From IMG/VR virus record IMGVR_UViG_3300022200_002849, positions 1 to 25,756 of that record: a stretch of 25,756 bases of DNA, one strand, 5' to 3'. The stretch is from a virus. Positions 1,527 through 1,565 of the stretch are shown here, in pieces. Made by a program: the position numbers and the translations under genes. Every line of letters starts with the position of its first letter. Position 1 is the stretch's first letter. Under the pieces are notes generated by a model, which searched no databases, was not told the origin of the DNA, and saw nothing but the letters and a program-made list of their open reading frames with translations.

Positions 1527-1565
1527 AACCCCCATTCTACTTGTCCTAGTATTTATATGGGGGTT
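1527..1565 (-). promoter_or_regulatory. Inverted repeat masking csgF ribosome-binding region
   Basis: On the minus strand AACCCCCAT (1565-1557) is perfectly complementary to ATGGGGGTT (1535-1527), with a 21-base loop. The right arm contains the GGGGG (1533-1529) just before the TTG start of csgF, so read-through mRNA would bury it in a GC-rich 9-bp stem. The late promoter lies in the loop, so RNA started there lacks the left arm. The same arrangement controls T4 gene e. Fold and function are inferred. Confidence 0.6.
1550..1557 (-). promoter_or_regulatory. T4-type late promoter TATAAATA upstream of csgF
   Basis: The minus strand reads TATAAATA from 1557 to 1550, the exact T4 late-promoter motif, 28 bases before the TTG of csgF. 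The same motif stands 27 bases before the tail-spike gene. Transcription would start around 1543-1545, giving a leader of about 20 bases. It lies in the loop of the inverted repeat at 1527-1565. Confidence 0.72.

Follow-up and report, generated by a model that had tools for sequence, protein, structure and literature searches.

A putative late-only translation switch at the csgF gene of T4-like phages

Genes for CsgF and CsgG, which make a curli-type pore, are common in phages: they turn up in hundreds of viral contigs, with at least 599 matching stretches. In the curli operons of pelagimyophages and of the methylophage Melnitz, as set out in the available portions of the two reports, csgF-csgG is followed by a curlin-repeat gene (PMC7029224, PMC9004378). 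The locus analysed here shares these genes with them, and all are found in T4-like phages. Of the pelagimyophages it is said, in the available portion, that it was not possible to predict late promoters and that the function of the curli genes is unclear (PMC7029224); lysis control has been proposed for phage curli genes in the corresponding portion of the other report (PMC9004378). Within those same portions, csgF is described in neither paper as having a hairpin or promoter (PMC7029224, PMC9004378). The question that the locus raises is when in the course of infection the pore proteins are made, and what might keep them from being made earlier.

Hairpin arms, ribosome site and late promoter

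The window (the whole stretch of DNA that was analysed, a 25.8-kb virus record) carries its longer genes on the minus strand, on which all of the window features discussed below are located. The order at the 3' end of that strand is S21-hsp20-clpS-121-aa ORF-csgF-csgG-curlin-repeat ORF. CsgF (1522-1031, 163 aa) is identified by Pfam PF10614 (E 6.4e-14) and by its relatives; its UUG start is supported by a signal peptide right behind it, and there is no other in-frame start. CsgG (1034-192, 280 aa, also with a UUG start) matches PF03783 (E 6.2e-51). The csgG start and the csgF stop share bases (TTGA), an overlap through which translation of csgG is probably coupled to that of csgF. The curlin-repeat ORF (192-1; PF07012, E 1.8e-4) is cut at the window edge.

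Two arms lie between the stop of the 121-aa ORF (1597) and the csgF UUG (1522): AACCCCCAT on the left, or 5', side (1565-1557) and ATGGGGGTT on the right, or 3', side (1535-1527). They are 100% complementary over 9 bp and are separated by a spacer of 21 nt. The right arm contains GGGGG (1533-1529), the presumed Shine-Dalgarno sequence, which is placed 6 nt ahead of the start codon and is the sole Shine-Dalgarno-like sequence at a proper distance from it. A T4-type late promoter, TATAAATA, matches at 1557-1550. The preliminary description of this DNA had perfect 9-bp arms flanking a promoter, with the right arm lying over GGGGG, and both the complementarity and the coordinates bear this out. 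It had also put the promoter in the loop, which is right for seven of the eight bases; the first T (1557) also closes the left arm. In T4, late RNA starts about 6 nt past the promoter. By that spacing rule, late RNA is predicted to begin near A1544, 13 nt beyond the end of the left arm, and to lack that arm, which would be confined to read-through RNA.

An inverted repeat arising by chance, a terminator or a processing hairpin might look like this. The hairpin by itself has a predicted RNA fold of -16.7 kcal/mol with a z-score of -2.74 (one of 200 shuffles is equally good), the window has other GC-rich inverted repeats (six 9-mer pairs in all, two of them overlapping, against 0-1 per whole-window shuffle, n = 10), and a single csgF leader proves nothing. 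However, there is no U tract directly behind the minus-strand stem, where the strand runs on as CAACTTGAAAAGC, and the terminator scan lists none there. What is more, similar masks recur on csgF in unrelated sequences. The controls presented below already disfavour an accident, a terminator or a processing hairpin, all of which we regard as highly improbable. A longer-range pairing of 1647-1633 with 1534-1520 (15 nt) is missing from the predicted fold, is weaker in the close relatives L001 and L004, and is probably due to chance. When viral contigs were searched with the pattern CCCCCATATAAATA, 121 matches were found. The full hairpin is present in the window and in L004 (the same as L022); L041 and L118, with a complementary GGGG arm close behind the match, are candidates, and the other matches are unrelated sequence.

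The octamer TATAAATA occurs at two sites within the window, which is no more than chance. It is the enrichment of TAAATA upstream of genes that points to T4-type late promoters being in use. In G001, a 212.9-kb near-identical relative whose CsgF is 98% identical to that of the window, no other hexamer is as enriched as TAAATA within 60 nt upstream of ORFs (55 sites where 6.4 are expected), and it is likewise the most enriched in two more distant phages (71 against 4.2 in G003, 51 against 5.0 in G004). G001 also encodes a gp23-type major capsid protein (PF07068, E 6.6e-99); the same PF07068 search gave no match in G004, G010 and G011. A search for a late sigma factor by a sigma-70 region 2 match found none, and the search for gp33 gave no match, its control likewise giving none anywhere.

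Over six genomes (G001, G003, G004 and G010-G012), TAAATA peaks 10-13 nt before start codons (maximum at 11; 117 sites), and the predicted start at A1544 agrees with the sharpness of this peak at 11 nt. A Shine-Dalgarno core accompanies none of the 131 sites at 9-14 nt, as against 115 of the 203 sites at 20-50 nt. Short-spaced T4-type late promoters would make leaderless mRNAs; a literature search found no report of leaderless mRNAs from late promoters of T4-like phages. Examples of short-spaced TAAATA in the window are found upstream of 6091, 19387 and 25438. In L162, L249, L254 and L482, csgF seems to begin immediately downstream of what resembles the 3' end of a tRNA, its ATG following TAAATA by 12-14 nt.

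Predicted masking of the csgF start

We think it likely that the arms and promoter constitute a late-only translation switch of the T4 gene e type. RNA entering csgF from upstream genes would have both arms, and these would pair, burying the GGGGG ribosome site, so that CsgF would go unmade; CsgG would probably be silent too, given the overlap of its start with the stop of csgF. Once the DNA has replicated, the late promoter that the arms enclose would fire, and RNA starting at about 1544, being without the left arm, could be translated.

Masking was measured as the energy required to open the region from start-15 to start+3 in read-through and in late RNA. In the null model, the 40 nt upstream of TAAATA were shuffled, with the late promoter and the coding side kept fixed. 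For the window, opening is predicted to take 19.6 kcal/mol in read-through RNA and 7.4 kcal/mol in late RNA, the latter being easier to open by 12 kcal/mol. Shuffling the upstream segment yields 9.2 +- 2.1 kcal/mol for read-through, and 2 of 500 shuffles are as high as the window. The result is robust: with varied windows and flanks, 0 of 100 or 0 of 150 shuffles were as high; none of 81 upstream segments swapped in from other csgF leaders masks equally well; and with more or less upstream context the read-through value is 13-20 kcal/mol, still well above that of late RNA. T4 gene e, put through the same test, gives 16.4 against 1.2 kcal/mol, with 0 of 500 shuffles reaching the read-through value. 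The preliminary description had read-through RNA pairing the GGGGG ribosome site, on the logic of T4 gene e, and had proposed that both transcript forms be folded. Folding them predicts a start region that is masked in read-through RNA far beyond chance and much easier to open in late RNA, and the gene e logic, with gene e giving the same signal, is the best-supported reading.

Late RNA has a weaker hairpin of its own, predicted at 1543-1520 (CAAGU-A-GAAU / GGGG loop / GUUC-A-ACUUG; -7.4 kcal/mol, z -1.75), in which GGGG would be placed in the loop and the UUG start in the stem. Since UUG is paired in it, translation of csgF from late RNA may be below full strength.

Ribosome-site hairpins with internal late promoters are known for the T4 genes e, soc, 49 and I-TevI (PMC3014915); in gene e masking lowers translation approximately 100-fold. 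As proposed here, the long early RNA of gene e hides the ribosome site, the late promoter TATAAATA lies in the stretch of the 5' strand, and the late RNA is without that strand (in the window, by promoter spacing). In contrast with gene e, the window has unrelated arms, a UUG start and a GGGGG site, its late RNA may keep a weaker hairpin, and its switch is a predicted one. The T4 examples are lysozyme, capsid or nuclease genes, whereas csgF belongs to a curli-type pore. An RNA hairpin is also reported to sequester the ribosome site of a homing endonuclease gene, mobE of phage Aeh1 (cited in PMC3014915). The device is of a known kind, and the novelty lies in its being used again and again on phage csgF.

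Recurrence and rebuilding of the mask on csgF

To describe the sample: csgF leaders were gathered from viral contigs, the loci being those nearest to a few query proteins and no random sample, and they were reduced to distinct leaders by ungapped identity, with a few near-relatives possibly remaining. The masking test was applied to leaders whose TAAATA precedes the start by 18 nt or more, with p<=0.02 as the cut-off for a signal. Among the distinct phage csgF leaders that have a late promoter, 32 of 82 give a masking signal (26 of 69 in a first set and 6 of 13 in a second), and 50 of the 82 are without it; among csgF leaders without a late promoter, none of 39 has the signal. The genome-wide control, covering the late-promoter genes of six genomes, yields 19 of 254, four of the 19 being csgF, and the share of non-csgF late genes with a signal is 15 of about 248. 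The first set of 69, compared with 146 genome-wide promoters, gives a Fisher odds ratio of 9.2 (p 2e-8). csgF ranks first among the late genes of four of the six genomes (G004, n = 45; G010, n = 32; G011, n = 27; G012, n = 49), third of 57 in G003 and eighth of 44 in G001; since G010-G012 were chosen for strong-looking csgF hairpins, their ranks speak for specificity and not for frequency. Among cultured phages, csgF of HTVC008M has TAAATA 11 nt ahead of its ATG and is leaderless by prediction, and csgF of Melnitz has no TAAATA. The absence of the device from these two, together with the 50 signal-free leaders, makes it common, not universal.

Another 31 leader clusters have the same architecture built from other arms, and the masking arms are for the most part not homologous across lineages: ATCCCCGTG/CACGGGGAT in L252, AACCCTACGTAA/TTACGTAGGGTT in L386, GTCCTCGTA/TACGAGGAC in L307, TCTAGATTCTATTA/TAATAGGATCTAGA in L271 and GTCTAG..CCTTG/CAAGG..CTAGAC in L172. 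Nearer the window, the arms of L004 are identical, those of L001 differ by one C-to-U change that leaves a U-G pair, and the right arm is invariant among the closest phages. The U-G pair weakens masking in L001/G001, where 13 of 200 shuffles are as high, so that conservation among the closest phages is modest. Three leaders that can be aligned without gaps (L475, L510 and L386) have changes on both sides in 3 of 10 pairs, and every cell of the alignment pairs; slid versions pair at 63% or less, and 27 of 500 shuffles are as high, for three sequences only. The preliminary description had proposed to look for compensatory changes in related phages: the closest ones keep the arms, and elsewhere the architecture recurs with unrelated or doubly substituted arms. 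On the csgF protein tree, no fewer than 12 gains or losses of the mask are needed to account for the well-supported branches; the mask must therefore have been lost or rebuilt repeatedly.

Might the inverted repeat instead be a DNA element at the late promoter, an operator or a polymerase contact, whose overlap with the ribosome site is incidental? The arms often closely flank TAAATA, and those of L386 and L307 form near-perfect DNA palindromes. Yet G-U pairs account for 53 of the 471 pairs in the stems, and in 24 of 28 leaders, a set partly chosen for good mRNA-strand folding, the fold of the mRNA strand is better than that of the complementary strand; the two observations together favour an RNA element over a DNA palindrome. 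Moreover, in long leaders (the window, L147 and L005) the right arm is at the ribosome site, away from the promoter, and other late promoters of the same genomes are without such arms. We consider a DNA element very improbable.

A group of csgF loci (L148, L149, L150, L153, L154, L156 and L165-L168) has a stem between TAAATA and the ATG, within the late leader; its sequence is either GTAGAGA/TCTCTAC or GTAGGGA/TCCCTAC, both sides having changed, and no Shine-Dalgarno sequence is evident. The hairpins of the L148/L150 group were considered as a switch and rejected: lying mostly inside the late leader they do not fit and are a different device, uncounted unless the test reached them. A gene near 182214 of G004 (L234, 2214-2765) has a leader around TAAATA, CATAGTTCGATA..TATCGAACTATG, that is palindromic almost throughout and takes in the ATG; it is the second strongest mask in that genome.

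Possible read-through into csgF and the timing of the pore

A consensus sigma-70 (early) promoter, TTGACA-17-TATAAT, is located 5' of hsp20 (2885-2857), approximately 1.3 kb upstream of csgF. The three close phages have all kept it, G001 and L004 with the promoter intact, and it is a possible source of early read-through into csgF. A terminator-like hairpin, identified by the scan between hsp20 and clpS (2336-2301; 16 pairs at 2336-2297), would limit read-through from it; the end of that hairpin enters the TAAATA late promoter of clpS. S21, hsp20 and clpS each have a TAAATA late promoter, so part of the read-through into csgF would itself be late.

The terminator-like hairpin and the late promoters of these three genes keep another explanation in contention, one that concerns insulation and not timing: the hairpin would block csgF translation from the read-through of late neighbours, leaving the dose of CsgF and CsgG to be set by their own promoter. 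Much of the read-through may indeed be late, as the S21, hsp20 and clpS sites indicate, but the conserved sigma-70 promoter makes early read-through possible. Insulation would also be useful to many late genes, yet the signal is rare on those other than csgF, as the genome-wide count shows. We judge insulation to be unlikely.

For the late-only switch, the reason for the timing may be the cost, ahead of the final stage of infection, of a CsgFG pore in the outer membrane or of what such a pore lets out. Recurrence of the mask with differing sequences suggests a need to avoid making the pore prematurely. A stronger proposition is that selection in T4-like phages acts against premature translation of csgF-csgG no less strongly than against that of a lysis gene, and that the mask has been repeatedly rebuilt for that reason; we would put it at slightly less than an even chance. 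If it is true, the curli pore of phages does its work as infection ends, in lysis control or in late amyloid release, and part of the question regarding phage csgF-csgG function is answered. A mask against translation from read-through RNA that is commoner on csgF than elsewhere among late genes, and has been rebuilt across many lineages, is independent evidence that CsgF and CsgG belong to that final stage. The analysis supports a late role of CsgF/CsgG; lysis by itself does not follow.

A separate hairpin, GTAGAC-G-CCG-GGGT-CGG-GTCTAC, is found in the leader of hsp20 (2816-2838). Its inner pair is altered on both sides (CCA/TGG) in G001 and L004, and it is therefore probably a real RNA structure.
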